Shown in pieces: positions 7,187 through 37,882 of a DNA stretch of 37,882 nucleotides. A model generated the notes under the pieces. It was not told where the DNA came from and did not search any database. It saw only the letters and a list, made by a program, of their open reading frames with translations. The DNA comes from Bdellovibrio sp. (GTDB taxonomy: Bacteria; Myxococcota; SpSt-1050), in contig DYEF01000027.1 of the NCBI GenBank assembly GCA_020725805.1, positions 1 to 37,882 on the forward strand, read 5' to 3'. The position numbers and the translations under genes are program-made. Each line of letters begins with the position of its first letter. The first letter of the stretch is position 1.

Positions 7187-7200
7187 AGTAAGGAGTATTT

Positions 7201-7620
7201 ATGTTTGAACCCAGAAGATTTGCAGATGTAAAGATTGGCGAGAAGGCGTCCATAAGGAGGAGTTATACGGAGGAGGATATCGAACTTTTCGTTATGGTGA
7301 GCCAGGACCGAAATCCGATACATTCGTCCGAAGAATACGCAAAGACCACGAGGTTTAAGCACAGGATTGTACCGGGACTACTCACTGCCTCGATGATTTC
7401 CGGTGTGCTGGGTACAAAATTACCCGGTTACGGGACAATCTATATGTCGCAGGACCTGAAATTCCTGCATCCTGTCTATTTCGGCGACGAACTGGAGTGT
7501 GAGGTCGAGGTTGTCGAGAAGATTGAAGAAAAGAGAATAATAATTCTGGATACGAAGATCAGGAATCAGGATAACCGGATAGTTATTTCGGGTAAGGCAA
7601 CTGTTATGCTCGAATCCTGA
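7201..7620 (+). CDS. MaoC-like hotdog-fold hydratase
   Basis: The 139-residue protein is a single MaoC-like hotdog domain. The hydratase dyad lies in SQDRNPIH, with Asp36 and His41 in the position used by (R)-specific enoyl-CoA hydratases such as PhaJ. VPGLLTASMISGVLG and DLKFLHPVYFGDELECEVEV fit the family core. It probably hydrates trans-2-enoyl-CoA (or an acyl carrier protein ester) in the cytoplasm, linking beta-oxidation and fatty-acid or PHA metabolism; the exact substrate cannot be read. It starts 14 bases after the GH16 stop with AAGGAG (7190-7195) five bases upstream of ATG, so it is probably co-transcribed with the glucanase even though the two functions look unrelated. Confidence 0.9.
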   Translation: MFEPRRFADVKIGEKASIRRSYTEEDIELFVMVSQDRNPIHSSEEYAKTTRFKHRIVPGLLTASMISGVLGTKLPGYGTIYMSQDLKFLHPVYFGDELECEVEVVEKIEEKRIIILDTKIRNQDNRIVISGKATVMLES

Positions 7621-23291: not shown

Positions 23292-23326
23292 TTTGAACGG
23301 GTTGAACGGTTTAAACGGTCTGAACA
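23292..23326. repeat. 9-bp tandem repeat, inverted copy 3
   Basis: TTTGAACGG, GTTGAACGG, TTTAAACGG and TCTGAAC repeat with a 9-base period. TTTGAACGG is the exact reverse complement of the CCGTTCAAA unit at 18380. It lies in the leader between the epimerase gene and the divergent NusG-like gene. Confidence 0.8.
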
Positions 23327-23400
23327 AAATTACAGAAATTCCCTTGACTAAGATTAATCGGTATATTAAGATTTGCCTCCGATAAAGTATCCCCGTGTTA

Positions 23401-23442
23401 GGGCTAACTTGTTGATATTGTGCTATATTTTTTGGTTTTTCG
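23401..23442 (+). promoter_or_regulatory. Element and extended -10 promoter upstream of the NusG-like gene
   Basis: GGGCTAACTTGTTGA (23401-23415) matches 14 of 15 bases of the element at 4586-4600. It is followed by TGCTATATT (23421-23429), an extended -10 box. Transcription would start near 23436, giving a leader of about 43 bases to ATG 23479. Consensus-based prediction. Confidence 0.4.
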
Positions 23443-23478
23443 GTGAACCCGACGGGGACGGAGTGTAAGTATTGGCAT

Positions 23479-23973
23479 ATGCTTCCGGAGGTAGATAACT
23501 GGGCAGTAATTCATACACACTCAAGGTGCGAGAAGGTGGTGGCTGATTTTCTCTCCGAGAAGAATGTCAGGTACTATCTCCCGCTCTATAAGAAGAGGCG
23601 GAGATATGGAAAACATATCAGGGAATCGATGCTGCCGCTCTTCCCGGGGTATCTCTTTTATGATTTCGACTCGATCTCGAAGACGCTTATTTACAGGACT
23701 CATAAAGTGGCTGGTATAATCGAGGCTAAAGACAAAGTGCAGCTAAAAAGAGAGCTCGAGAATATCAGCCGTGCACTTGACTCCGGTGAATTCTTCGAGA
23801 AAGCCGATTTCGAGACCCCGGGCAGAAGGGTCAGAGTCGTCGGCGGACCTCTTGAAGGTATAGAAGGTGAATTTGTAAAACGAAAGAATAGGACAAAACT
23901 GGTGATAAAGATACACATACTTGGAATGGCTGTTGAGACGGATATAGACGAGGCTTATGTTAAGGCACTATGA
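23479..23973 (+). CDS. Specialised NusG-family antiterminator (UpxY/RfaH/LoaP-like)
   Basis: The 164-residue protein has the NusG N-terminal (NGN) fold, starting NWAVIHTHSRCEKVVADFLSE and continuing MLPLFPGYLFYDF, the RNA polymerase-contact region. A KOW domain follows (GRRVRVVGGPLEGIEGEFVKRKNRTKLVI). Its sequence and position at the head of a long polysaccharide gene run fit the specialised NusG paralogues (RfaH, UpxY, LoaP) that stop premature termination in capsule or EPS operons. The start is uncertain: GTG 23443 extends the frame by 12 residues, but a predicted promoter at 23421-23429 would leave it only about seven bases of leader, so ATG 23479 is preferred. Neither has a strong ribosome binding site. 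No ops or JUMPstart sequence is recognisable. Confidence 0.88.
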   Translation: MLPEVDNWAVIHTHSRCEKVVADFLSEKNVRYYLPLYKKRRRYGKHIRESMLPLFPGYLFYDFDSISKTLIYRTHKVAGIIEAKDKVQLKRELENISRALDSGEFFEKADFETPGRRVRVVGGPLEGIEGEFVKRKNRTKLVIKIHILGMAVETDIDEAYVKAL

Positions 23974-24029
23974 TAGCAGAGAAGATTCAGAACGAGCTGA
24001 GGGAGCGATTAAAAGATTTAGAGAATTAG
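23970..24029 (+). CDS. Possible 19-residue ORF coupled to the NusG-like gene
   Basis: ATG 23970 overlaps the NusG-like TGA stop (ATGA), the classical coupling arrangement. It encodes MIAEKIQNELRERLKDLEN, one charged helix, before a TAG. It could be a micro-protein, a leader, or the remnant of a longer gene. There is no independent support. Confidence 0.25.
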   Translation: MIAEKIQNELRERLKDLEN

Positions 24030-24044
24030 TCTTAAAAAGGTGTT

Positions 24045-24356
24045 TTGAAAGTATCTATGAGTCGCTCAAAAGAAAAATGCACTGAATTTGTTCGTAAACT
24101 CCCGTCTTTTTTCAGGGGACTGCTCTGGTTTATGGATTTTGATAAGATTGATGTTTTAAGAGACAGAGAGAGTATTTTATATCAGGTGCTCGGGAAGGGA
24201 AGGATGGAACACATAAGATATGCCGAAGGGCTCTATGGTAAAGAAGAGATATTAAAATTTGCTAAAAGAAACCTTGTCGATGCGAAGGATATTCCGGATG
24301 AATTTGCCCGGAAGATAATCGAGAAAGGAGAAATATGGATAGGAGCAGAGAAATAA
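24045..24356 (+). CDS. Small protein resembling DUF6922 (possible toxin-antitoxin component)
   Basis: The 103-residue protein has a core LWFMDFDKIDVLRDRESILYQVLGKGRMEHIRYAEGLYGKEEILKF. It recalls the short DUF6922 pattern (FWDxDFxxLD...IIERVLxxGDLExxRWLxxxYGKEEI), found beside AbiEii-like nucleotidyltransferase genes in toxin-antitoxin loci. This is recognition from memory, not a search. TTG 24045 has AAAAAGG four bases upstream; ATG 24057 is the alternative start. Its 3' end overlaps a 47-residue ORF by 22 bases. No full toxin gene follows, so the pair may be decayed. Composition is host-like, not that of the AT-rich cassette downstream. Confidence 0.6.
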   Translation: MKVSMSRSKEKCTEFVRKLPSFFRGLLWFMDFDKIDVLRDRESILYQVLGKGRMEHIRYAEGLYGKEEILKFAKRNLVDAKDIPDEFARKIIEKGEIWIGAEK

Positions 24357-24478
24357 AAGAACAACTTATAAGGTCAATAGACTCATTGAGAGAATCCTTT
24401 GAGTATGCGATTAAGAACAAAAAGGGTTTGAGACTATTTGTAAAATACTATTTTACATCTGGTAGAACCAATTGTTAA
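24335..24478 (+). CDS. Small overlapping ORF, possible truncated partner gene
   Basis: ATG 24335 has AAGGAG four bases upstream and overlaps the end of the preceding gene by 22 bases. It encodes 47 residues (MDRSREIKEQLIRSIDSLRE... ending SGRTNC), mostly one amphipathic helix. The good ribosome binding site and overlap suggest a real or once-real gene. The abrupt end near an inverted repeat suggests truncation. Function unknown. Confidence 0.4.
   Translation: MDRSREIKEQLIRSIDSLRESFEYAIKNKKGLRLFVKYYFTSGRTNC
24440..24456. promoter_or_regulatory. Perfect inverted repeat, possible operator
   Basis: GTAAAATA C TATTTTAC is a perfect 8-bp palindrome around one central base. GGTAGAA occurs twice nearby as a direct repeat (24461-24467 and 24492-24498). 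It lies inside the 3' end of the 47-residue ORF and about 50 bases before the truncated oxidoreductase start. An operator or a recombination scar are both possible. Confidence 0.35.
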
Positions 24479-24507
24479 TTACTGCTTGACAAATGGTAGA
24501 ATAAAAT

Positions 24508-24729
24508 ATGCCTAATCCGAAGAGAGTAAAGTGCAGAGTTGGAGATGTAAGATATCACAGCGAGAGTGTGTCTTCTGTATATTTATCTCCCCTTTCAAGT
24601 TTACCAAAATTTAAGTCAGGACAGTTTTTGCATTTTACACTTGATGATTTTGACCCCTCCAGTGGTTTCTGGCCCGAGTCAAGGGTATTTTCGATAGCAT
24701 TTAATGATTTTTATTTGATATGTTTTTAA
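24508..24729 (+). pseudogene. Truncated FAD-binding oxidoreductase, 5' fragment
   Basis: The 73-codon frame begins like the FAD-binding domain of ferredoxin-NADP reductase-type oxidoreductases: VYLSPLSSLPKFKSGQFLHFTLDDF, then WPESRVFSIA, where the family RxFSIAS flavin motif should continue. Instead, from about 24703 the sequence turns AT-rich and reads FNDFYLICF before a stop. The NAD-binding half is absent. This looks like a host gene cut off at the edge of an inserted or exchanged cassette. Its stop overlaps the ATG of the following acyltransferase by 10 bases, so its translation may feed into the first cassette gene. Confidence 0.7.
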
Positions 24730-25298
24730 GAGTTAAAAAGTATTTAAAAAGATTAATAATTTATTTAACGCCTCTTCTTTCAATATTGTTTTCAATATTT
24801 TTTAATAAAAAAATCTTTAAGAGTAGACACTTTAGAGAGACATTAGTTGGGTGGAGATGGGTATTTAGGGGTATTTTGTTCCAAAAAGTTCTTCGTATTA
24901 ATTCTCATATCCCCTGGCCGGTGAATTTTACTACAACTATTGTTAATCCGGATAGCATAATTTTTGATGTGGATGATTTAAATAATTTTCAATCACCCGG
25001 GTGTTATTTTCAGTGTAATGAAGGAAAAATATATATAGGTAAAGGTACTTATATAGGTCCAAATACAGGTATTATAACAAGTGAACATAGTATAGATAAT
25101 TTGGACATTCATCTACCAGCAAAAGATGTTGTAATTGGAAAAAATTGTTGGATTGGAATGAATTGTGTAATTTTACCAGGTATAGTATTAGGGGATCACA
25201 CTATAGTAGGGGCATGAAGTATAGTAACTGAAAGTTTTGAGGAAGGTAATGTAATTATTGCCGGTGCGCCTGCAAAGGTTATTAAAGTGTTAAAATGA
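24720..25298 (+). pseudogene. Hexapeptide-repeat acyltransferase interrupted by a TGA stop
   Basis: The frame runs 24720-25298 with one internal stop, TGA at 25215-25217 (codon 166 of 193). Upstream lie an N-terminal membrane-proximal helix region and left-handed beta-helix hexapeptides (IYIGKGTYIGPNTGI, VVIGKNCWIGMNCVILPGIVLGDHTIVGA). Downstream the same frame continues SIVTESFEEGNVIIAGAPAKVIKVLK, the standard family ending. Family members read GAGS at the break, so GGA (Gly) to TGA is a single-base change. The enzyme would O- or N-acetylate a sugar. Either the gene is newly inactivated, the shortened product still works, or the base is an assembly error. Confidence 0.8.
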
Positions 25299-25302
25299 TT
25301 TT

Positions 25303-26619
25303 ATGCTAAGTAGATTTATCTTTTATGTTAAGAATTACTATTTTAATGATAAAACATATAAAAATCTAATATTTGGTTCAATTTGGAATTCAGTTGCTAA
25401 TTTTGTAAGCAGAATGAGTAATTTTTTTTCATTTGTTATTATTTCAAATTTATTGGGTAGGGTAGGATTTGGTGAATTAGGTATGATTAATAGTACAATT
25501 GGCACATTAGGAATATTCGGGGGGATGGGTATGGGTGTAGCGGGTTCAAAGTTTATTTCTGAATACAGAGAGAAAGATAAATTAAAGGCAGGTTCTTTTA
25601 TTGGAATAATATTAATGTTGTCAGCTACTTGCACTATTGTGATTAGTTTAATACTGATAATTTTTAGAAGAACAATTTCCTATCATCTGCTTGGTGCACC
25701 TCATTTGGAAAAAGCTCTTTTATTAAGCGTATTTTTACTTATGGCAAATATTTTTCTGGGTGTTTTGACTGGCATTTTATCAGGATTTGAGGATTTCAAG
25801 AAATTATCGATCGTAAATATGATTGTTTCGGTAATTTCATTGCCTGTAATATTTATCTTCAGCAAATATTTTAAATTATATGGAGCAATATCTGGCTTTT
25901 CACTATCAATATTAATAAACTCATTATTTATCTTTGGTATTATTACTTCAAGGTGTAAGAAAGAGAATATTAAAATTACATTTTCAAATTTTAATAATTA
26001 TTATAAAGCACTATTATCGTTTAGTTTACCAATGCTGATATCGAATTTATTTAGTGGAGGAATCACATGGGTGTGTATGGTGATTGTTGCAAATACTCAG
26101 AATGGATATAGTGAGATAGGTTTATATAATGCAATAACACAAGTGAGGAATATAATCTTTTTTATTCCTACGGTTATAAGTCAGGTAATGATCCCGGTAA
26201 TATCCAATAAATTGGCTGAAAAAAATATAAATGATGTTAAAAAGATAATTAAGGCAGGAATTATTAGTATTTTAATTCTTGTTTTGCCGCTAATATTGGT
26301 ATTGGGATTATTCCCCAATGGTATAATGTATCTATATGGTAAAGAATTTGCAAATTCTAATTGTGTGTTTTATCTTATGTTAATTACTTCATTGCTATAT
26401 TGTATACAGGTAGCACCTGCTTCATTTTACATTGCAAGTGGGAAGACAAATATATCTTTATTATACAACATTATTTGGGGTGTTGTAATGGTCATTCTGA
26501 CATATATATTAAGAGAATATGGAGCGTCAGGATTATATATAGCACATTTAGTGGCATACTCTTTAATATTCTACTTGTTTACAATAGGAACATTTAATTT
26601 TCTTAAGAGAAGTTACTGA
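25303..26619 (+). CDS. wzx: Wzx-type oligosaccharide flippase
   Basis: The 438-residue protein has about twelve to fourteen membrane segments and the MATE/MOP-like opening FGSIWNSVANFVSRMSNFFSFVIISNLLG with GELGMINSTIGTLGIFGGMGMGVAGSKFISEYR. These mark a polysaccharide biosynthesis (Wzx/RfbX) flippase, which moves lipid-linked repeat units across the inner membrane. FYIASGKTNISLLYNIIWGVVMV near the end is also typical. It starts four bases after the acyltransferase frame ends and there is no clear ribosome binding site. Presence of Wzy in the same run indicates a Wzx/Wzy-dependent pathway. AT-rich codon use. Confidence 0.9.
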   Translation: MLSRFIFYVKNYYFNDKTYKNLIFGSIWNSVANFVSRMSNFFSFVIISNLLGRVGFGELGMINSTIGTLGIFGGMGMGVAGSKFISEYREKDKLKAGSFIGIILMLSATCTIVISLILIIFRRTISYHLLGAPHLEKALLLSVFLLMANIFLGVLTGILSGFEDFKKLSIVNMIVSVISLPVIFIFSKYFKLYGAISGFSLSILINSLFIFGIITSRCKKENIKITFSNFNNYYKALLSFSLPMLISNLFSGGITWVCMVIVANTQNGYSEIGLYNAITQVRNIIFFIPTVISQVMIPVISNKLAEKNINDVKKIIKAGIISILILVLPLILVLGLFPNGIMYLYGKEFANSNCVFYLMLITSLLYCIQVAPASFYIASGKTNISLLYNIIWGVVMVILTYILREYGASGLYIAHLVAYSLIFYLFTIGTFNFLKRSY

Positions 26620-26620
26620 T

Positions 26621-28486
26621 ATGTGTGGTATTTTTGGTTTAATAAATAAAAACAAAAAAGAGATTAACATAGATAAAATTATAGCTTGTACAGAATTGAT
26701 CAGACATAGGGGACCCGATGATGAAGGATATATGTTTTTTGATACTGGTAATAATACATTATTATCTTTTAAAGGGAAAGATACAGATAAAAATTTAGAA
26801 TATCTGCCGGATGTTAGAAAGTATGCTAAAACAAATAGCGATATTATTTTTGCACATCGACGGCTTTCAATTATCGATTTATCAGTTGATGGGCATCAGC
26901 CGATGGTAAGGAATGATAATGTTTTAATATATAATGGAGAAATATACAATTATGTCGAAATTAAGGATGAATTGAAAAGTTATGGTTTCAATTTTAAATC
27001 AAATAGTGATACAGAAGTAATTCTTGCAGCTTATGAAAAATGGGGAATTGATTGTTTAAAAAAGTTCGATGGGATGTATGCGTTTAGTTTATTGGATACT
27101 AAGAATAGGCTGCTTTATCTTTGCAGAGACCATGCGGGGATAAAGCCGTTATATTACTATAATGGTAATGATTATTTTATTTTTGCATCGGAAATAAAGC
27201 CGATATTGATGTTTATAGAAAAGATAGAATATAATTATAAGAGCATTGTTGAGTTTTTTGCGCTGTCGCTATCCAGATATGGAGAGAAAACATTTTTACA
27301 GGATATCTATCAAGTAGAACAGGGCACTTTTATTAACATTAATCTTTCCAATTTCCACATAAAAAACAACAAATATTGGGATATTAGAGAATGTTTCAAA
27401 AGAGATCATAATTTGTCGTTTGATGAATCTGTAAATATATTAAGTGAAAATTTTTCAAGGGTAATATCATTACAAAAGAGATCAGATGTGAAGGTAGGGA
27501 CATGTCTTTCTGGCGGAATTGATTCTTCCGGTATAGTTTTTGAACTTTCCAGATCAGGTCCGGTTGAGTCGTTTAGTTATATTGATTTAAATAAGGAGAT
27601 TTCAGAAGAAAAATATATTGAGAATGTAGTTAAATCAACACATACGCACAATAATAAGATTTATCTTACCAACATTAGTGTAGATTTATTAGAAAAAGTA
27701 ATATGTTTTCAGGAAAGCCCATTCAATTCACTGAGTATACTTGCTCAATATAGATTATTTGAAAAAGCAAGTGAAATGGGAGTTAAGGTATTACTTGATG
27801 GTCAGGGAGCGGATGAATTATTTTGTGGTTACGATATATATAGGTATTTTTATTATTATAAATATTTCCCAAAAAGTCTACTAGTAGGGAATAAAAGAGA
27901 AATTATTTCAGGACTAATAAAAAGTAAAATACCGAGATACTTCTGGAATATTTATTTTAATAAAAAGCTTAAAATAATAAAAAATGAGTATAAAAATCCA
28001 TTAGATATGTCGAGAATGAAACTTAATTATGATTCAATAAATGATTTGATAATTGATCAGTTTACTTATGCTCAGCTACCGGTATTGTTGCATTATGAGG
28101 ATAGGAATTCCATGGCAAATTCCGTAGAAAGCAGGGTTCCTTATCTGAGTAGAAATATGTTTGAAGAGTATTTATATGATTTTTCAAAATATGGAATTAG
28201 TAGTGATGGAGAGACAAAATATTTATTGAAAAATATGCTATATAAAAAATATAACTCTGATGTGTTCAAAAGGAAAAATAAAATTAATTTCAGAGTTGGT
28301 GATTATTCGTTTTTTATAAACAATAAGAGCAATATTATTGATATAATTTACGGATATGGGGATATCTTTGATAATAAAGAAATGAATTTAATTGAAAGAA
28401 GATATAATTATTTTGTGACAAAAAAATCAGAATTATTATGTAAGATAGTAACATATTGCTTGTTTAATAAAATATTTAAAGGGTAA
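26621..28486 (+). CDS. Asparagine synthetase-like glutamine amidotransferase (AsnB/WbpS type)
   Basis: The 621-residue protein starts MCGIFG; after Met removal Cys2 is the glutamine amidotransferase II nucleophile. RHRGPDDEG and YNGEIYNYVEIKDEL belong to the same domain (about residues 1-230). The synthetase domain has the pyrophosphate loop SGGIDSS (297-303), LLDGQGADELFCGY and NSMANSVESRVPYLS. In polysaccharide loci such enzymes (WbpS of Pseudomonas O-antigen clusters is the known type) are thought to amidate a uronic acid residue rather than make asparagine. With a UDP-glucuronate epimerase nearby this is the likely role here, but it is inference. It starts one base after the Wzx stop. Confidence 0.9.
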   Translation: MCGIFGLINKNKKEINIDKIIACTELIRHRGPDDEGYMFFDTGNNTLLSFKGKDTDKNLEYLPDVRKYAKTNSDIIFAHRRLSIIDLSVDGHQPMVRNDNVLIYNGEIYNYVEIKDELKSYGFNFKSNSDTEVILAAYEKWGIDCLKKFDGMYAFSLLDTKNRLLYLCRDHAGIKPLYYYNGNDYFIFASEIKPILMFIEKIEYNYKSIVEFFALSLSRYGEKTFLQDIYQVEQGTFININLSNFHIKNNKYWDIRECFKRDHNLSFDESVNILSENFSRVISLQKRSDVKVGTCLSGGIDSSGIVFELSRSGPVESFSYIDLNKEISEEKYIENVVKSTHTHNNKIYLTNISVDLLEKVICFQESPFNSLSILAQYRLFEKASEMGVKVLLDGQGADELFCGYDIYRYFYYYKYFPKSLLVGNKREIISGLIKSKIPRYFWNIYFNKKLKIIKNEYKNPLDMSRMKLNYDSINDLIIDQFTYAQLPVLLHYEDRNSMANSVESRVPYLSRNMFEEYLYDFSKYGISSDGETKYLLKNMLYKKYNSDVFKRKNKINFRVGDYSFFINNKSNIIDIIYGYGDIFDNKEMNLIERRYNYFVTKKSELLCKIVTYCLFNKIFKG

Positions 28487-28489
28487 TAA

Positions 28490-29710
28490 ATGAAAAGAGA
28501 AATATTGTTTATCTCATATTATTCTCCTTTTATTAGAACTGTGGCGTCGATAAGAATTGAGAATATGATAAGGCAATTGATAAAACATAACTGGAATGTA
28601 ACTCTTCTTTCTCCTGATGAAAAATATTTTCATAATATAGATGATAAAATAAATATTGAGAATTTGAATATAATAAGAACAAGTTTTATTACGAAATTGT
28701 TATCTGGTATTGAGAAAGAAAATAAAGCACTTGAATATTTGTCAAGAGGTTTATCAAAATTGTCGAGAACAATAGGTTTTGAGCCGGAAACAGGATGGTT
28801 GTATGATATTTTGAATTACTATAAAAAATATGCAATGAATATAAATTTTGCAATCTGTTCTGGTGGCCCGTTTGTATCTTTTATAGCAGCTTATCTGATA
28901 AAAAAATATATTAACCCTGAATTTAAATATATGCTGGATTACAGAGATCTATGGAATGGGAATCCACATAATAGATATACGCTTTTTAGTCATATTGAAT
29001 CAAAAATATTGAAGAATGCATCTGGTATATTTGCTGTATCACCATCTATGGTGCAAATATTAAGTAGATATAATGATAAATGTTATTTAATAACAAATGG
29101 TTTTAATAAAAAAGATATAGAGAATATTATTACAGAGAAGAGATCTGAAATCACCAATAATCTAGTATATGCTGGGACATTTTATAAAGATCTAAGAACT
29201 ATTGATCCTCTGTTTCGTTCTATAAAATTACTAAAAGAAGAAGGAATAGATATCATTTTTGATTTCTATGGTAGTCAGGTAGAATATGTAAAAAACAAAG
29301 GAAAAATTTACGGAATTTCTGGTAATATTAGGTGTTTTGGAAATAGACATAGGAATGAAGTTTTACGAGCATTATTTGAGGCAATGGGAGTTGTTGTAAT
29401 AATTAATTCAAATAAGGAAAGTAATCTCTTTCAGGATACCATTATTACCGGAAAAATATTCGAATGTATTGCTTTGAATAGAAATGTACTTGTTATAGCT
29501 CCTAAAAGTTCTGATTCAAACAAAATTTTGGAAGAAATTGGTTATGAAAAGGCAATCCCTGGTAATGAAATCTTACAAATTAATAATAGAATTAAATTTT
29601 ATATGAATAATAGAGAGAGAATTATTGATTATAATTTAATCAAAAAATATGAGTGGGATTCCATTGGGAGCAGCTTAAATCAATATCTTTTAGATATATG
29701 TGGAAAATAA
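28490..29710 (+). CDS. Glycosyltransferase, GT4-like (GT-B fold)
   Basis: The 406-residue protein has a GT-B pattern. The N-terminal domain contains ILFISYYSPF, ICSGGPFVSFIAAYLI and YMLDYRDLWNG, the acceptor-side motif of this family (DLW). The C-terminal domain begins VYAGTFYKDLRTIDPLFRSI and holds VFGNRHRNEVL-like and VIINSNKESN segments. The usual EX7E motif of the C-terminal half is weak here. Donor and acceptor sugars cannot be read. It starts four bases after the amidotransferase gene and its 3' end overlaps the Wzy start by 13 bases. Confidence 0.82.
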   Translation: MKREILFISYYSPFIRTVASIRIENMIRQLIKHNWNVTLLSPDEKYFHNIDDKINIENLNIIRTSFITKLLSGIEKENKALEYLSRGLSKLSRTIGFEPETGWLYDILNYYKKYAMNINFAICSGGPFVSFIAAYLIKKYINPEFKYMLDYRDLWNGNPHNRYTLFSHIESKILKNASGIFAVSPSMVQILSRYNDKCYLITNGFNKKDIENIITEKRSEITNNLVYAGTFYKDLRTIDPLFRSIKLLKEEGIDIIFDFYGSQVEYVKNKGKIYGISGNIRCFGNRHRNEVLRALFEAMGVVVIINSNKESNLFQDTIITGKIFECIALNRNVLVIAPKSSDSNKILEEIGYEKAIPGNEILQINNRIKFYMNNRERIIDYNLIKKYEWDSIGSSLNQYLLDICGK

Positions 29711-30903
29711 TCAGTAAATTATTACTCGTTTTACCTCTGTTTATTTCAGTACATCTTGGTCCATTGATTGATATTATTAATCACATTTTTGAAATAGGAA
29801 GTGATGATTACGCAAGATTGGGATTTAGTCAAATCATTAGGGGCGTGCTTATTATACTTATGCTATTATCTGGTTTATATTTAAGACATAAGATTAAGTT
29901 AGACTCGATGTCAAAACTATTGTTGATTTTTAGTGCCTATATATTTCTTTTCTCTTGGGTTCATATATCTCCTTATAAAGATTTTGTTTTTGGACTAAAG
30001 GTGCTTTTTATTACTGTGGTTTATATAAATTCAAAAGTTTTGTTTTCAAGTAATATAATTGGAGATAAGTTTGTTAAATCTGCTTATTATATGATTGCAT
30101 TGACTGTTTTTATTTCGCTAATTGTCGGATATTATATGGATGTTCCTTCTTACGAAGGCATAGATTTTGCTTTAGCTGGAATAACCGGACAACCAGCTGG
30201 ACCATCCGCAAATATTGCATCAATTTTCCCTATAATATTTATTGGGAATTTGCAGAATATCAGCAATTGGAAAATAATAAATTTACTATTTTGTATTATC
30301 TTATCTTTAGCTATGATGAGAAGAACAGGCATAATAGCTATATCTCTTTCAAGCTTATTTGTTATTATTTTGTCTCTTAGTAAGGTTAAAGATGTTTTGA
30401 AGAAACTAATATTACTTTTTTTAATTATTGTAATTGTTATTGTCGGGTGGTATTTTATAAAAAAATATTCTTTCGATCAAGCAATTGAGATGAGGTTTGA
30501 AGAAGCTGACATAAGAAAAGGAGGAACGGGCTCTGGAAGAAGCTTTTTTTGGATGGAAAGTATTGATTATATAATGAATGTTGATTCCTTTGTAGATATT
30601 TTATTCGGGGAAGGGTATGGCAGCTCTAGCCAAATTATGTTTAAAAGATTAGGAATATACGTTGGGACACATAGTGAAATTTTTGATTTATTATTAAATT
30701 TTGGAATTGTCGGATTAGTTTTCTTCTTTTTCTACATTATTATATTTTTAAAATTTATGTTTGAGTCTCATTTTAACCATCTTTATGTAATAGTATTTAT
30801 CATAACAATTTCGTTTGTAGTTTTTACGGGAGGTTTTTTTGATCCAAATTTTAGTGCAATTTTTTTTCTTATAGGATATTTAAATGTTAAGTACAAAAAA
30901 TAA
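29698..30903 (+). CDS. wzy: Wzy-type O-antigen/EPS polymerase
   Basis: The 401-residue protein has about eleven membrane segments, beginning MWKIISKLLLVLPLFISVHLG. A periplasmic loop in the second half (IKKYSFDQAIEMRFEEADIRKGGTGSGRSFFWMES) is followed by a second cluster of helices and ends FFLIGYLNVKYKK. Low sequence conservation but this architecture is typical of Wzy polymerases, which join repeat units at the periplasmic face. MMRRTGIIAISLSSLFVII is a common inner motif. ATG 29698 is preferred; the frame extends to 29653 but that reads into the previous gene and breaks the membrane start. No clear ribosome binding site, so translation is probably coupled to the upstream gene. Confidence 0.8.
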   Translation: MWKIISKLLLVLPLFISVHLGPLIDIINHIFEIGSDDYARLGFSQIIRGVLIILMLLSGLYLRHKIKLDSMSKLLLIFSAYIFLFSWVHISPYKDFVFGLKVLFITVVYINSKVLFSSNIIGDKFVKSAYYMIALTVFISLIVGYYMDVPSYEGIDFALAGITGQPAGPSANIASIFPIIFIGNLQNISNWKIINLLFCIILSLAMMRRTGIIAISLSSLFVIILSLSKVKDVLKKLILLFLIIVIVIVGWYFIKKYSFDQAIEMRFEEADIRKGGTGSGRSFFWMESIDYIMNVDSFVDILFGEGYGSSSQIMFKRLGIYVGTHSEIFDLLLNFGIVGLVFFFFYIIIFLKFMFESHFNHLYVIVFIITISFVVFTGGFFDPNFSAIFFLIGYLNVKYKK

Positions 30904-31068
30904 AGGATATTTTGGTGTTAGATATTATTAGAAAAGTAGGTTGTTTAATTTAAATTAGAATGTTCTATATATTGAGCCAATAAGAATATAGTAATTTTAA
31001 TATAAGGAAATAATGAGGTTTGTTGATTATATAGTATATAATAATTCTTGCTTGATTTAAAGGAGAAA

Positions 31069-32268
31069 TTGATTTCCAAGATTTTCTATATAGATTCATT
31101 GGATTTTTCTGTTGAGACTTCTGGTTCAGGAGGAACAAGTGTATCTCAATCAGCTATTCGTACCTGTGGGAACAAATTTATGTATATTGGGGTAGGAGAT
31201 TCAAAAAAATTAGAAATTGGTAAATGGAACAAAATTATAAAAAACAAAGAACATATCTGGTTTTTCCCTGTGTGCAGAAATAAAGTACTTGAGAGGGTAC
31301 CACTTGGTTTTCGTGATTTATACTTTGCAATAAGTGTTTATATAAATAGAAAAAAAATATTTGGAAATAATTATACTACATGTTCGATTTTTACTGGGAA
31401 TACATTTATTTTATGGATATTTTCATTCTTAACAGGTAAAAAAAGAATTTATTATTATGCCCCTGGTCTAAGATATTCAGATTTTTTCACCCGCCATCGA
31501 TTAATAGGCAAACTTATTTTTCCTTTTTTTAAGAAAATACATGCAGCTTCTTTAAATAGAGCATCGATTATTTTTGCTGCAGCTTCTAAGGAAGAAATTA
31601 ACAGGTATAGTTTGGAGTTAGAAAAATACGGTTTTAATAAAAAAATTAGGCAACAACCTACAATGATTAATGTACAAATTTTTTATCCTAGGGATAAAAA
31701 ATCCATGCGTCAGAAGCACAATTTGCCTATGGATATACCTATTTTTATTTATGTGGGCAGGCTCGCAAAAGTGAAAGGTGTAGATTTTTTGATTGATGCG
31801 GTTTCCTCTTTTAAAGATAGATATGGAGATTGCCGTATTATAATATGTGGTGATGGAGAACAAGATACACATCTTAGGACTTATGTTGATCGTATTAATA
31901 TGAATGATATTGTGCTATTCAAAGGTAATTGTCCTTCGAATCTTGTTGCTGAGTATATCGGTGCATCAGACGTTTGTCTTGTGGGATCATTTTATGAAGG
32001 TTTTTCTGTTGCAATGATAGAGGAAGTAGTATCTGGCAGGCCTGTAGTAAGTACAAATGTTAGTGGTGCATCTGATTTAATTAAAGATGGAATAAATGGC
32101 TTCATTGTTTCAGAAAGAAATCCACATATTTTTGCTACTAAAATGTTTCAGTCGTTAAAACTTCAAGAATCTTCTCTGAAATACAGTAATGAACTAAGCG
32201 AAATTTATGATGAAAAAAAACAGTGGGATCGTATTATGTTAGAAATTGATAGATATGGATATGAATAA
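31069..32268 (+). CDS. Glycosyltransferase, GT4 family
   Basis: The 399-residue protein has a classical GT4 C-terminal half: IFIYVGRLAKVKGVDFLIDAV (phosphate-binding start), IICGDGEQ, FKGNCPSNLVAEYI, then FYEGFSVAMIEEVVSGRPVVSTNVSGASDLI, which holds the EX7E-type motif (E-G-F...E-E) that binds the donor nucleotide. The N-terminal half includes ETSGSGGTSVSQSAI, a glycine-rich loop facing the acceptor. Start taken as TTG 31069 after AAAGGAG with a short three-base spacer; TTG 31048 is an alternative. The upstream gap of about 165 bases is AT-rich and has a TATAAT at 31037-31042 without a good -35. Sugar specificity unknown. Confidence 0.85.
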   Translation: MISKIFYIDSLDFSVETSGSGGTSVSQSAIRTCGNKFMYIGVGDSKKLEIGKWNKIIKNKEHIWFFPVCRNKVLERVPLGFRDLYFAISVYINRKKIFGNNYTTCSIFTGNTFILWIFSFLTGKKRIYYYAPGLRYSDFFTRHRLIGKLIFPFFKKIHAASLNRASIIFAAASKEEINRYSLELEKYGFNKKIRQQPTMINVQIFYPRDKKSMRQKHNLPMDIPIFIYVGRLAKVKGVDFLIDAVSSFKDRYGDCRIIICGDGEQDTHLRTYVDRINMNDIVLFKGNCPSNLVAEYIGASDVCLVGSFYEGFSVAMIEEVVSGRPVVSTNVSGASDLIKDGINGFIVSERNPHIFATKMFQSLKLQESSLKYSNELSEIYDEKKQWDRIMLEIDRYGYE

Positions 32269-32342
32269 AATTAATAATTTTATTTTATTGGGTTTTATAG
32301 TGAATTTTCTTGATTCTCGCAAATTTGTTAAAATAAGTTAAA

Positions 32343-33584
32343 ATGAAAATTCTTGTTGTTCATAATTTTTATCAGTCTCACTCTCCTTCTGGGGAGGATA
32401 CTGTCTTTAAGAATGAAGTAGATTTGTTGAGAGGAAGAGGCATAAATGTTATTACCTATACGAGGCATAATAATGAAATCGTAAGTTTTCTTGATAAAAT
32501 TAAATCGTCATTCACAAGTATTTGGTCAGAAAAGACTTATAAGGACATTAAAGTAATTATAAGAAGAGAAAGACCGGATATTGTGCACTTTCATAATATA
32601 TGGTATCTTATATCACCATCCGCTTATTTTGCTTGCAAAGAAGAAAATATCCCTGTAATTCAAACATTGCATAATTTTAGAATATGCTGCACTAATGGGT
32701 TATTATTTAGGAACTCGAAAATATGTGAAGAATGCATTCCTTCGAAGAATGATTGCTTGAACTTACTATTTAATCCAAGATTAAAATTGATAGTTAATGG
32801 GTTGAAATATTATTGTTATAGGAAATCTAGATTATATACTTTACCTGTGGCTGTAAATCAATTTTGGCATTGGATGAAAAGAACTTGGATTGATAAAATT
32901 GATGCATATATCTCACTTACTAAGTTTGCGAAAGGAAAATTTGTGGAAATGGGTATACCAGAAAAGAAAATTTATGTGAAACCTAATTTTTTAATTAACC
33001 CACCTGAACCTAGATATATAAATAGTAATTATGCTGTTTTTATTGGACGATTAACGGAAGAAAAAGGTATAAGATTTTTAATAGAGACTATTAAAATCTT
33101 AATTAGAAATAAAGAACTTCATAATGATCCAAATAAATTCTATTTTAAAATTGTAGGTGATGGACCTCTTAGGAGTCAGATTGAAAATGATGTGAAAAAA
33201 GAAAATATAAGTATAGTAGAATTTACAGGTAGGAAAAGTTCAGATGATGTAATAAAAATATTGAAGGATGCTAAATTTATGATAATGCCATCAATATGTT
33301 ATGAAACTTTTGGTTTAACAATAATTGAAGCATTTGCTTGTGGTAAACCAGTTGTTGCTTCGAATCATGGTGCTATGGCAGAGATTGTTGAGAATGGCAG
33401 AACTGGACTACTTTTTAATGTGGGAAGGCAAGGAGATCTTGCTAGAAAGATTAAGTGGATGATTTTTAATGAAAGTGCTTGTGTTAAAATGGGTAAAAAT
33501 GCAAGAGTGGAGTTTGAGGAAAAATATAGACCGGAGAAAAACTACGAAATTTTTATGAATATTGTGAATAAGATAATTGTTTAG
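32343..33584 (+). CDS. Glycosyltransferase, GT4 family with Cys-rich insert
   Basis: The 413-residue protein shows PSGEDTVFKNEVDLLRGRG and HFHNIWYLISPSAY in the N-terminal acceptor domain. A Cys cluster (CCTNGLLFRNSKICEECI), typical of a subgroup of capsule GT4 enzymes and possibly metal-binding, follows. The C-terminal donor domain has VFIGRLTEEKGIRFLIETI, IVGDGPLRSQIE, FTGRKSSDDVIKIL and the EX7E region ETFGLTIIEAFACGKPVVASNHGAMAEIV. It is a retaining GT-B enzyme at the inner membrane face. There is no visible ribosome binding site before ATG 32343. Confidence 0.87.
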   Translation: MKILVVHNFYQSHSPSGEDTVFKNEVDLLRGRGINVITYTRHNNEIVSFLDKIKSSFTSIWSEKTYKDIKVIIRRERPDIVHFHNIWYLISPSAYFACKEENIPVIQTLHNFRICCTNGLLFRNSKICEECIPSKNDCLNLLFNPRLKLIVNGLKYYCYRKSRLYTLPVAVNQFWHWMKRTWIDKIDAYISLTKFAKGKFVEMGIPEKKIYVKPNFLINPPEPRYINSNYAVFIGRLTEEKGIRFLIETIKILIRNKELHNDPNKFYFKIVGDGPLRSQIENDVKKENISIVEFTGRKSSDDVIKILKDAKFMIMPSICYETFGLTIIEAFACGKPVVASNHGAMAEIVENGRTGLLFNVGRQGDLARKIKWMIFNESACVKMGKNARVEFEEKYRPEKNYEIFMNIVNKIIV

Positions 33585-33676
33585 GTTATTAATCTCTTAT
33601 GTAAGATACTACGTTAAGGATGTTAATGTTATTGATTTAGGAAGAAAATATATATTATTTGAAAGGATGGATGATA

Positions 33677-34900
33677 ATGAGAATATTAGTTTCAGCATTT
33701 GGTTGTGCTCCCAATTGGGGATCTGAAGTGGCTGTTGGTTGGAATTATGTTAAGGAGTTGGATAAAATACATGAGCTGGATGTAATTGTGGAATCTGGCT
33801 TTAAAGGTAGAATTGAGGAATATGTAAATAATTATAATGAACCTCGGTGTAATTTCCATTTCATTGATATCGGTGATGAAGGAAGATCTCTAGCTCCAAG
33901 ACAGGGGAACTGGTTGTTTTACTATTATTATAGAAAGTGGCAATTAAAAGTGTATAAATATGTTATTGATCTCATGCATAGAAAGAAGTTTGATATAATA
34001 CATCATTTAAATTTAACAGGATATAGAGAGCCAGGCTTTTTATGGATGTTGAGAGATATCCCATATGTTCATGGACCTATTAGTGGTTTTCAGCAATTTC
34101 CAACATCTTACCTTGATATATTGAGTTATAAAGAGAAGATATATGAATTAACTAGAAATGTAATAAATTACATTCAATCGCGGTACCATAAAAGGTTTAT
34201 TAATGCAATAAATAGAGCAGATGCTGTGTTGGCTGGTACTAGATATGACCAAAAAATAATCAAAAAAACATTTGGTATTGATTCTATTGTGGTGCCTGTA
34301 AATGGAACTTTTGAACGTAAACAATTACCTGAAAGGATTATTAATGAAACAATTAATGTTATATGGATAGGAAAGTATTTATCAAGAAAAGCCTTACTAA
34401 TTGCTATAAGGGCAGTTGGGGAGGCTATAAAGAAAAATAGAAATATATATTTTCATATTGTTGGTGTTGAGGAGAAATTTAAGAAAAATGTAGATTTGAT
34501 GATAAATATGTATGCTTCTTTCGATAATTGTATAAACTATGGTGTGCTTGAATATAATAAAACTCATGATTTGCTTGCTAGGTGTGATATTTTGTTTTTT
34601 ACAAGTCTTCAGGATAGTACACCATCGGTGATTATGGAAGCACTTACATTTGGTGTTCCTGTAGTATGTCATGATATATATGGTATGGGAGATGTTATAG
34701 ATGAGAGCTGTGGAGTTAAAATTTCTGTTATTGATAGTAATACAAGTATAAGAAAATTTAGTGAAATATTAATTGAACTATCTAATAATAAAGATTTATT
34801 GCTTAGGTTGTCTATTGGTGCTAAAAAGAGATCTGAATTGTTTACATGGGAAAAAAACGCTAAAATAATTAATAATATATATGAATCAATAGCAAAATAG
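33677..34900 (+). CDS. Glycosyltransferase, GT4 family (SAxxCxPxxGSE subgroup)
   Basis: The 407-residue protein begins MRILVSAFGCAPNWGSEVAVGWNYV, the N-terminal pattern of a GT4 subgroup common in EPS clusters. FDIIHHLNLTGYREPGFLW, PYVHGPISGFQQFP and IWIGKYLSRKALLIAIRAV follow. The C-terminal part has LQDSTPSVIMEALTFGVPVVCHDIYGMGDVI, the EX7E-like donor-binding stretch in which the first Glu is replaced by Asp. ATG 33677 follows AAAGGA by nine bases; ATG 33671 and TTG 33659 are alternatives. Donor and acceptor unknown. Confidence 0.85.
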   Translation: MRILVSAFGCAPNWGSEVAVGWNYVKELDKIHELDVIVESGFKGRIEEYVNNYNEPRCNFHFIDIGDEGRSLAPRQGNWLFYYYYRKWQLKVYKYVIDLMHRKKFDIIHHLNLTGYREPGFLWMLRDIPYVHGPISGFQQFPTSYLDILSYKEKIYELTRNVINYIQSRYHKRFINAINRADAVLAGTRYDQKIIKKTFGIDSIVVPVNGTFERKQLPERIINETINVIWIGKYLSRKALLIAIRAVGEAIKKNRNIYFHIVGVEEKFKKNVDLMINMYASFDNCINYGVLEYNKTHDLLARCDILFFTSLQDSTPSVIMEALTFGVPVVCHDIYGMGDVIDESCGVKISVIDSNTSIRKFSEILIELSNNKDLLLRLSIGAKKRSELFTWEKNAKIINNIYESIAK

Positions 34901-35009
34901 GTTTTGCAAAATTTATTTATTAAAATGATAATACCAATGTTAATTTATATTAATATGAACGATAAATCTAAAATATTTTGTAATGTAAGTGTTAAAATTA
35001 TGTAGAAAC

Positions 35010-35777
35010 ATGTGCTATACTGAAAATATTTCAATACTTATTGTTTCCTGTGATAAATATCAAGATATGTGGGAACCATATTTTTTCTTGTTTGATAAAA
35101 ATTGGAGTAATTGTCCATATAAAGTATATTTGATGACTAATTATCTAAAACCAGATTTGGCAAAAATTGGAATAATTAATGTAGGCGAAGATATTTCATG
35201 GTCTGATAATTTGGCTTATTCATTAAAAAAAATAAAAAGTAAATATGTATTTATTCTTCTTGACGATTTCTTTATAGTAGATACCGTTAAAAACGATCAA
35301 GTTGTGCAAGTTGTCAACTGGGCAATTGATAATGATGTAGATTACTTACATTTATTTAGATATCCGAGACCAAAAAAATTGATTTGCAATAATATTGGAA
35401 TTATTCCAGCACGTACAATGTATAGAGTTTCGACTATATCAAGCTTATTTAAAAAAGAAGTTTTATCGAATTTGCTGGACGAAAAAGAATCAGCGTGGGA
35501 TTTTGAAATAAAAGGCTCTTTAAGGTCTAAAAATTATAACGAATTTTATTCTGTAGATGATGATTTAATACCTGTTGTTAACGGTGTGATAAGAGGTAAG
35601 TGGAATAGAAAGATAATTAAATATTTTAAGAAAAATAAAATTAGCTATTGTTCTAATCGTCCTGTTCTCTCAGTAAGAGAACAAATTCTTTATGAATTGA
35701 GTATTTTGCGGTCAAAAATCTTTTCTTTTTTACCTTATAATGTTCAAGTAAGTTTAAGAAATTTATTTAGGAGTTAA
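35010..35777 (+). CDS. Putative GT-A-type glycosyltransferase
   Basis: The 255-residue protein (262 if GTG 34989 is the start) opens ENISILIVSCDKYQDMWEPYFFLF, followed by YKVYLMTNY and DNLAYSLKKIKSKYVFILLDDFFIVD. The LLDDFF motif is in the position of the DxD metal/nucleotide site of GT-A folds. It resembles a family of uncharacterised capsule-locus proteins with this opening, so a transferase is likely but unproven; specificity unknown. It ends with a basic helix (ILRSKIFSFLPYNVQVSLRNLFRS) that may touch the membrane. No ribosome binding site was found for either start. It is followed after three bases by the sugar dehydratase gene. Confidence 0.65.
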   Translation: MCYTENISILIVSCDKYQDMWEPYFFLFDKNWSNCPYKVYLMTNYLKPDLAKIGIINVGEDISWSDNLAYSLKKIKSKYVFILLDDFFIVDTVKNDQVVQVVNWAIDNDVDYLHLFRYPRPKKLICNNIGIIPARTMYRVSTISSLFKKEVLSNLLDEKESAWDFEIKGSLRSKNYNEFYSVDDDLIPVVNGVIRGKWNRKIIKYFKKNKISYCSNRPVLSVREQILYELSILRSKIFSFLPYNVQVSLRNLFRS

Positions 35778-35780
35778 TAT

Positions 35781-36959
35781 ATGATTCCATTAATGAAATT
35801 TACTTTTATCAATGAGTATGAAACCAAAGAAGAACTAATTGAATTTATTAGAAAAACGAGTAAGTTTAGTATGGGAGAAAAGTGTTTAGAGTTTGAACAG
35901 GGGTTTTCAAGATTTCAAGGTAGAAGGTATTCAGTCTTATTCAATAGTGGAGCTAGTGCAAATCTTGCTCTGCTTCAATCGTTAAAAAATTTAGGAAGGA
36001 TAAAGGAAGGAGATAATGTAGGGTTTTCTGCACTTACTTGGGCTACAAACGTTATGCCTATTATACAAATTGGTTTGAATCCAATACCTGTTGATTGTTC
36101 TGTAAATACATTAAATGTAATGAGTAATAATTTACTAGCGACATTGGAAAAGTATAAACTAAGAGTTTTGTTTATAACAAATGCCCTTGGTTTTGCTGGC
36201 GATTTGTTAAATATTAAAGAAATTTGCAATGAGAGGGGAATAATACTGATCGAGGATAATTGTGAGTCATTAGGTACAGAGTTGTATGGGACTAAAACCG
36301 GTAATTTTGGATTAGCTTCAACGTTTTCGTTTTTTGTTGCTCACCATATGTCCACTATTGAAGGGGGAATGGTATCAACTGATGATGAAGAGTTGTATGA
36401 TATGTTAATTATTGTAAGAGCTAATGGCTGGGATCGTAATCTAAGACATGATAAACAAATCAGATTAAGAAAAGCACATAATATTTTAAGTGAGTTTGAA
36501 GCTAAATATACATTTTACGATTTAGCTTTTAATATGAGACCAACCGAAATAACAGGATTTTTAGGCTTAACGCAATTAAAATATTTATCGCAGAATATTG
36601 AGAAGAGGAATCAAAATTATCAATTAATAGAAGCGGTAATAGAGAAAAACAGCGATCTAATACTTATTTCTCACGAACATATATCTAAGCTTTCCCCTTT
36701 TGCAACTGTAATTGTTTGCAAAAGTAAAGAACTTAGGGATAAATATTTATATCGATTTTCCGGAGCAGGAATAGAAATTAGACCAGTGATTGCCGGAAAT
36801 ATCCAAAGACAGCCATTTTTTAAAAAATACATTAACATAAATGTTGATTTACCAAGTACAGATTTTATTCATTATTGTGGTTTTTATTGTGGTAACTATC
36901 CAGAGTTGACAGATATGGATATTGAAACTATTATAAGCTGTCTTCATAAATTAGATTAA
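35781..36959 (+). CDS. ColD-like PLP-dependent 4-keto-6-deoxysugar 3-dehydratase (DegT/DnrJ fold)
   Basis: The 392-residue protein is a DegT/DnrJ/EryC1-fold enzyme (FSMGEKCLEFEQGFSRFQ, SGASANLALLQSL, ILIEDNCESLGTELYG). In the PLP site the normal Schiff-base lysine is replaced: STFSFFVAHHMSTIEGGM has His188 where aminotransferases have Lys. This is the signature of ColD (GDP-4-keto-6-deoxymannose 3-dehydratase) and of the CDP-sugar 3-dehydrases (E1/RfbH). Length and absence of the Fe-S cysteines favour ColD over E1. The product would be a 3,6-dideoxysugar such as colitose or a relative. A GDP- or CDP-sugar 4,6-dehydratase is not in this window. It precedes the GT26 gene by four bases. Confidence 0.88.
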   Translation: MIPLMKFTFINEYETKEELIEFIRKTSKFSMGEKCLEFEQGFSRFQGRRYSVLFNSGASANLALLQSLKNLGRIKEGDNVGFSALTWATNVMPIIQIGLNPIPVDCSVNTLNVMSNNLLATLEKYKLRVLFITNALGFAGDLLNIKEICNERGIILIEDNCESLGTELYGTKTGNFGLASTFSFFVAHHMSTIEGGMVSTDDEELYDMLIIVRANGWDRNLRHDKQIRLRKAHNILSEFEAKYTFYDLAFNMRPTEITGFLGLTQLKYLSQNIEKRNQNYQLIEAVIEKNSDLILISHEHISKLSPFATVIVCKSKELRDKYLYRFSGAGIEIRPVIAGNIQRQPFFKKYININVDLPSTDFIHYCGFYCGNYPELTDMDIETIISCLHKLD

Positions 36960-36963
36960 TAAT

Positions 36964-37734
36964 ATGAGTGAGAAGATATTAAATTTTAATGTTTTTGATG
37001 GTGATCTTAATAGGTGGATTACTGAGTTAGTTAACAAGTATATACTAAATAATACATCCAGAGCATTATATTTTGTTCAATTAAATCCTCATTCTTTCGA
37101 GGTTTCTCTTAAGGATGAAATTTTTTATAATGCAGTAAAAAACGCTGATTTTGTGTTTCCTGATGGTATCGGAATTGTTTTAGCGTCTAGAATATTAAGT
37201 GGAAAAATTATTAGACGAATAAGCGGTTATGATATATTTATTAACTTAAGTCATTATTTGAATACATATAAAGAACAAAAATTTTCATATTTTTTTTTGG
37301 GAAGTAACGAAAATACTTTGAATAAAATTATTACAAAAATGTCATATGATTTTCCTAATATAAAAGTCGCTGGTGTGTTTGCGCCACCTTTTAAAGATGA
37401 ATTTAATTATAATGAAATAGAAATTATGTTAGATAGAATAAATGAATCTAAAGCTGACGTGTTGTGGATAGGAATGACAGCACCAAAACAAGAGAAATGG
37501 GCATTCCTGAATAAAGATAAACTGAATGTAAAATTGATAGCTCCTGTCGGAGCCGTATTTGATTATTACGTGGGAAATGTTGTTTTGGCTCCAAAGTGGA
37601 TAAGAAATAACGGATTTGAGTGGCTTTTTAGGTTTTTACAAGAACCAAAAAGATTATTTTATAGAAATTTTATAACTAGTCCTAAATTCTTGTTTAGAGT
37701 TATTTCGTATAAAATTAAAAGTTATTTCACATAA
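36964..37734 (+). CDS. WecG/TagA/CpsF-family glycosyltransferase (GT26)
   Basis: The 256-residue protein matches the WecG/TagA family: YFVQLNPHSFEVSLKDEIFYNAVKNADFVFPDGIGIV near the start, FFLGSNENTLNKI, then LWIGMTAPKQEKWAF and LIAPVGAVFDYYVG. The end WLFRFLQEPKRLFYRNF is the family membrane-contact tail. These enzymes add the second sugar (in characterised cases N-acetylmannosamine or its acid) to the lipid-linked sugar in teichoic acid, ECA or capsule assembly. It is the last AT-rich gene of the cassette; the next gene shows host-like composition and a strong AAGGAG. Confidence 0.92.
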   Translation: MSEKILNFNVFDGDLNRWITELVNKYILNNTSRALYFVQLNPHSFEVSLKDEIFYNAVKNADFVFPDGIGIVLASRILSGKIIRRISGYDIFINLSHYLNTYKEQKFSYFFLGSNENTLNKIITKMSYDFPNIKVAGVFAPPFKDEFNYNEIEIMLDRINESKADVLWIGMTAPKQEKWAFLNKDKLNVKLIAPVGAVFDYYVGNVVLAPKWIRNNGFEWLFRFLQEPKRLFYRNFITSPKFLFRVISYKIKSYFT

Positions 37735-37742
37735 GGAGATAT

Positions 37743-37882
37743 ATGAACAGAGACATAGCCGTTATTGGTTCAGGTTACTGGGGGAAGAATATTGTCAGAA
37801 ATATGTATGAACTCGGAAGGCTCAGATATGTATGTGACAGCAATTCTGAACTATTAAAGGAGATAAAGGCAAAGTATCCTGA
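37743..37882 (+). CDS. Gfo/Idh/MocA-type oxidoreductase, 5' part (WlbA/WbpB-like)
   Basis: Only the first 46 codons are in the window; the frame is open at the end. MNRDIAVIGSGYWGKNIVRN is the N-terminal Rossmann start of the Gfo/Idh/MocA family, in the form seen in nucleotide-sugar 3-dehydrogenases such as WlbA/WbpB that oxidise UDP-GlcNAcA. AAGGAG lies five bases before the ATG. Codon use is host-like, so this is taken as the conserved right flank of the cassette. Confidence 0.85.
   Translation, partial: MNRDIAVIGSGYWGKNIVRNMYELGRLRYVCDSNSELLKEIKAKYP

Follow-up and report, generated by a model that had tools for sequence, protein, structure and literature searches.

The polysaccharide locus at the end of the window (the whole stretch analyzed, contig C22 at its full 37,882 bp, from a 3.29-Mb draft genome in 115 contigs that is 97.9% complete) is best explained as the site of a cassette exchange, in which an earlier cassette was quite probably displaced by an AT-rich one, with the left breakpoint at position 24700 and the start of a reductase gene left as a relic. 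Polysaccharide genes lie on one strand in DNA of about 28% GC that begins near 24700 and continues to the contig end. Read this way, the region is a variable locus for a polysaccharide of the O-antigen or capsule type, lying 3′ of an RfaH/UpxY-like NusG paralog. Relic genes from O-antigen and capsule replacement are already documented, and the present case is a clean but ordinary example; its value is that, in a Myxococcota lineage that has received little study, one edge of a cassette swap is located to a few bases, and that the layers can be read in order, from the host regulator through an older import to the newest one.

Truncated reductase gene upstream of the AT-rich cassette

The open reading frame (ORF) at 24508 to 24729 on the forward strand encodes 73 amino acids, MPNPKRVKCRV...WPESRVFSIA followed by a nonfamily tail, FNDFYLICF, that runs to a stop codon at 24727 to 24729. 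In tblastn searches, residues up to 64 matched seven independent loci at 44 to 59% identity (44 to 55% for the intact reductases beside rfbH and rfbF), and all alignments ended at residue 64, the alanine of RVFSIA, at base 24699. Position 65 is phenylalanine in the window and serine in all six intact relatives examined. A reading of this DNA made from sequence alone had described an oxidoreductase frame that stays family-like up to RVFSIA and is then ended by AT-rich sequence, and the searches bore out both the truncation and its coordinates to within a few bases. Intact relatives are 235 to 247 amino acids long; the stub (24508 to 24699) retains 64 of the roughly 240 residues of the family, the mark of a truncated gene. 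Missing from it are the remainder of the FAD-binding domain and the entire NAD-binding domain, and therefore no active reductase is possible.

The sequence-only reading also took the fragment for a host gene, a flank sacrificed when the cassette was exchanged, and here the evidence points elsewhere. On a codon-usage score trained on window genes, the stub scored −0.02, intermediate between host genes (mean, 0.36; standard deviation, 0.16) and cassette genes (mean, −0.29). Only 2% of host 64-codon segments were as low, placing the stub outside 98% of host segments of its length, and 1% of cassette segments were as high. The gene is absent from the same-genus (G001) and same-order (G002) genomes that were compared, and its relatives sit in polysaccharide cassettes beside rfbH and rfbF. 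Together, the nonhost codon usage, the absence from related genomes, and the setting of the relatives make it most likely that the stub is what remains, at the 5′ end, of an E3-like FNR-type reductase gene, a relic of an earlier polysaccharide cassette and the start of what was probably the first gene of that old sugar-gene set.

Pfam and PDB searches with the 73-residue stub gave no credible direct match, and comparison with plasmid sequences gave no match. A second match within the window's own genome (contig C61, E value of 0.034) was rejected as chance, as it falls on a thymidine-kinase region but in a different frame. Matches in Alteromonas and Paraglaciecola were also set aside; they cover only about 30 residues, and the Alteromonas protein is a different, multidomain one.

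Composition and sequence at the junction

At the junction (24700 to 24719, forward strand), reductase similarity stops and AT-rich DNA starts, with a GC content of 40.4% in 24508 to 24700 versus 16% in 24701 to 24800. The largest 200-bp GC step within 23300 to 26000 lies at 24699 (0.16), coinciding with the end of similarity. Measured at 24700, the step is 0.155 (39% to 23.5% over 200 bp), a value equaled or exceeded at 1% of host positions and at no cassette position, and codon usage switches together with composition where the reductase similarity ends. The recombination or insertion junction that had been proposed to within a few bases could thus be placed at 24700, with foreign AT-rich cassette DNA downstream. 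The GC profile is not smooth, but it falls in two steps rather than in a single host-to-foreign step, from about 46% to 38% near 23860 to 24000 and then to 29% near 24700. By segment, GC is 46.5% in the nusG paralog, 38% in the DUF6922 gene, 31% in a 47-codon ORF, 40% in the stub, and 29% from the acyltransferase gene onward. The composition is atypical before 24700 is reached, and this position is the inner edge of that stretch rather than a host/foreign boundary.

The GC step alone would not prove exchange, because undisturbed Salmonella O-antigen clusters show similar steps, with dideoxyhexose (ddh) genes at about 40 to 45% GC and flippase, polymerase, and transferase genes at 28 to 37% (PMC3715488). 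Stronger evidence comes from the truncation in midgene. The locus resembles the Salmonella galactose-initiated O-antigen clusters both in this composition (intermediate GC in the ddh genes, low GC in flippase and transferase genes) and in that exchange and decay leave truncated genes at junctions there, with wzy remnants in B1 and D1 and an H-repeat remnant at the D2 junction (PMC3715488). Unlike those remnants, the present one is a ferredoxin-less reductase stub by a linked NusG paralog in Myxococcota, it came with no visible insertion-sequence remnant, and its ancestor is one that we infer for the locus.

The junction DNA had no match in E. coli. A long repeat was sought at the junction and none was found, the sole direct repeat that touches it being weak, 71% identical, AT-rich, and 91 bp away. 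The seam showed no terminator or RNA hairpin, and among the window ORFs we saw no insertion-sequence gene. Because all of these elements are missing, the seam would have formed by an illegitimate join, or by a deletion that came after recombination through the shared regulator.

An assembly chimera, a join at 24700 between reads from two strains that occur together and carry different cassettes after the same regulator, would fit a multicontig draft, the tendency of variable polysaccharide loci to be assembly break sites, and a G001 contig that also ends there. Such an artifact is unlikely, however, given that both sides of the seam belong to the same functional class, lie on the same strand, and keep a regulator-to-operon order, that the ORFs abut with no gap, and that the only direct repeat touching the seam is the weak one, not a long shared repeat.

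Intact relatives and the CDP-3,6-dideoxyhexose pathway

Intact reductases were found in Chitinispirillaceae, Fibrobacter, Verrucomicrobia, Anaerolineae (two), and one Myxococcota metagenome-assembled genome (MAG) (loci L028, 6001 to 6744; L029, 6001 to 6744; L030, 6001 to 6723; L031, 5998 to 6705; L032, 5998 to 6705; and L033, 6001 to 6723). All six matched NAD-binding domains, five of the six matched FAD-binding domains, and no others matched. Within a few kilobases of each of the six intact relatives with readable flanks, representing four phyla, are rfbH (NF011936) and rfbF (TIGR02623), all above NCBIfam cutoffs. A gene for an rfbG-like dehydratase is also nearby, above the TIGR02622 cutoff in L012 (where tested) and recognized elsewhere by sequence or Pfam. 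Among other Myxococcota rfbH loci, no such reductase lies within 1.5 kb, with the exception of one genome (G040).

The rfb genes make CDP-3,6-dideoxyhexoses, with E3 reducing the intermediate produced by E1, or RfbH (PMC8987622). Like E3 (DdhD/AscD), the intact relatives are FAD/NAD reductases, and in every locus read they are encoded beside rfbH, rfbF, and an rfbG-like gene. Unlike known E3, which has its own [2Fe-2S] cluster (PMC8987622), they have FAD- and NAD-binding domains only. Proteins of 235 to 247 amino acids that lack an iron-sulfur domain and lie beside rfbH and rfbF in four phyla are possibly compact E3 enzymes, which makes this rfbH-linked family a candidate ferredoxin-free E3 and a modest side finding. 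A broader and rather doubtful proposal is that the stub belongs with them to an undescribed E3 class, recurring adjacent or nearly adjacent to rfbH in cassettes of at least four phyla, in which electrons would pass from FAD directly to the [2Fe-2S] cluster of RfbH, and that the NusG-linked locus would be a repeatedly used cassette-exchange site in this lineage. In L028, small gene pairs judged by sequence to be nucleotidyltransferase/HEPN-like surround the reductase and lie between it and rfbH (813 to 2937 and 6848 to 7619), resembling toxin-antitoxin pairs within a polysaccharide cassette.

RfbH and RfbF were not found in the window's genome or in G001. Other matches to the intact reductase in the window's genome are remote FNR proteins only, identical at no more than about 27% of positions and encoded in a hydrogenase/heterodisulfide-reductase-like locus on contig C40. 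These searches bear on whether the AT-rich cassette was inserted into, rather than substituted for, a reductase operon that survives with its 3′ half past the contig end. The contig does end in AT-rich cassette sequence at 37882, leaving the right junction off the contig, but insertion is quite unlikely, since searches across a genome of this completeness turned up neither RfbH, nor RfbF, nor the remainder of the reductase, and matched RfbG only below its cutoff. We infer that the whole dideoxyhexose pathway was once at the locus and was replaced, not interrupted.

Replacement would have built the locus in three layers. The first would be the host regulator and DUF6922 gene, and the second the import of a cassette beginning with an E3-like FNR reductase that would have served as electron donor to RfbH for CDP-3,6-dideoxyhexose. 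In the third, the AT-rich cassette would have displaced the earlier one from codon 65 onward, with a left breakpoint at base 24700, after reductase codon 64 and 20 bases short of the ATG that opens the new cassette, and the stub would have persisted between the regulator and the new operon.

Cassette genes and translation start signals

The first gene of the new cassette (24720 to 25217 from its predicted start, forward strand) encodes a hexapeptide-repeat acyltransferase (PF00132, 8.6e−12 across the stop; acetyltransferases in PDB). Its ATG overlaps the reductase fragment, as the sequence-only reading had pointed out, the stub stop and the new start sharing ten bases. An in-frame TGA at 25215 to 25217 falls within the hexapeptide domain, and the frame continues with a family-like tail, which makes the gene a pseudogene unless the sequence contains an error. 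An alternative genetic code was rejected, as the neighboring nusG itself terminates with TGA.

The acyltransferase gene has no Shine-Dalgarno match (duplex energy, 0.6 kcal/mol), that of the stub is weak (−2.8 kcal/mol), and several other cassette genes also lack one. Judging from this arrangement, the stub start signal could possibly feed translation of the next gene. A functional role for the 73-codon ORF as a leader, retained as a short gene to couple translation into the acyltransferase, would account for the ten-base overlap and the missing Shine-Dalgarno match but is highly improbable, considering the other cassette genes without a match, the weak signal of the stub itself, the break in the acyltransferase, and the fact that none of the relatives has a short version.

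The rest of the displacing cassette (25303 to 37734, forward strand) encodes a flippase, an asparagine synthase-like protein, several glycosyltransferases, a putative polymerase, a DegT-like aminotransferase, and WecG/TagA; genes with no family match were named from sequence and position.

Conserved NusG anchor and a probable older breakpoint

The NusG paralog (23443 to 23973, forward strand; likely start ATG at 23479) is a putative UpxY/RfaH-like antiterminator and the conserved host anchor of the locus. It has an N-terminal NusG domain (PF02357, 4.5e−13), is 83% identical in G001, and has host-like codon usage (0.33). Like the UpxY-, LoaP-, and RfaH-type paralogs, regulators that activate the polysaccharide operons within which they are encoded (PMC7593976), it lies directly upstream of a long polysaccharide operon on the same strand. 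Unlike them, it scores under all three curated cutoffs (UpxY, 8e−24 and 84.5 of 100 bits; LoaP, 50.4 of 125; RfaH, 44.5 of 144.5).

The DUF6922 gene that follows (24045 to 24356, forward strand; PF21956) has residues 1 to 76 in common with G001 and a different C terminus. DNA similarity to G001 by blastn covers 23398 to 23951 and 24102 to 24271 of the window and then ends inside this gene. As judged from these alignments, an older breakpoint is at about 24272, about 430 bp before the 24700 junction. After DUF6922, G001 carries an AbiEii-type gene (locus L010) that is missing in the window, and its contig ends 0.97 kb past nusG. Different genes follow the nusG paralog in G002 and G008, among them (named from sequence) carbamoyltransferase- and acyltransferase-like genes or a flippase-like gene. 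Because these three genomes differ 3′ of nusG or DUF6922, the NusG regulator is the stable element and the content that follows it varies. With G001 truncated at this point and other genes in G002 and G008, an intact reductase at the same locus was not found in any genome.

The 47-codon ORF (24335 to 24478, forward strand) has a strong Shine-Dalgarno match (−8.7 kcal/mol), no Pfam match, and no similarity in the loci compared; it is possibly another remnant. Just upstream of the stub, at 24440 to 24458, is a 19-bp perfect dyad, TGTAAAATACTATTTTACA (RNA fold z-score, −1.8), which may be an operator or chance in AT-rich DNA. DNA directly 5′ of the nusG paralog is conserved in both genus members (window 23360 to 23442 and L010 3450 to 3535; GGGCTAACT..TTGATATTGTGCTA.ATT), a block that is likely a shared promoter or leader, though the genes further upstream differ.
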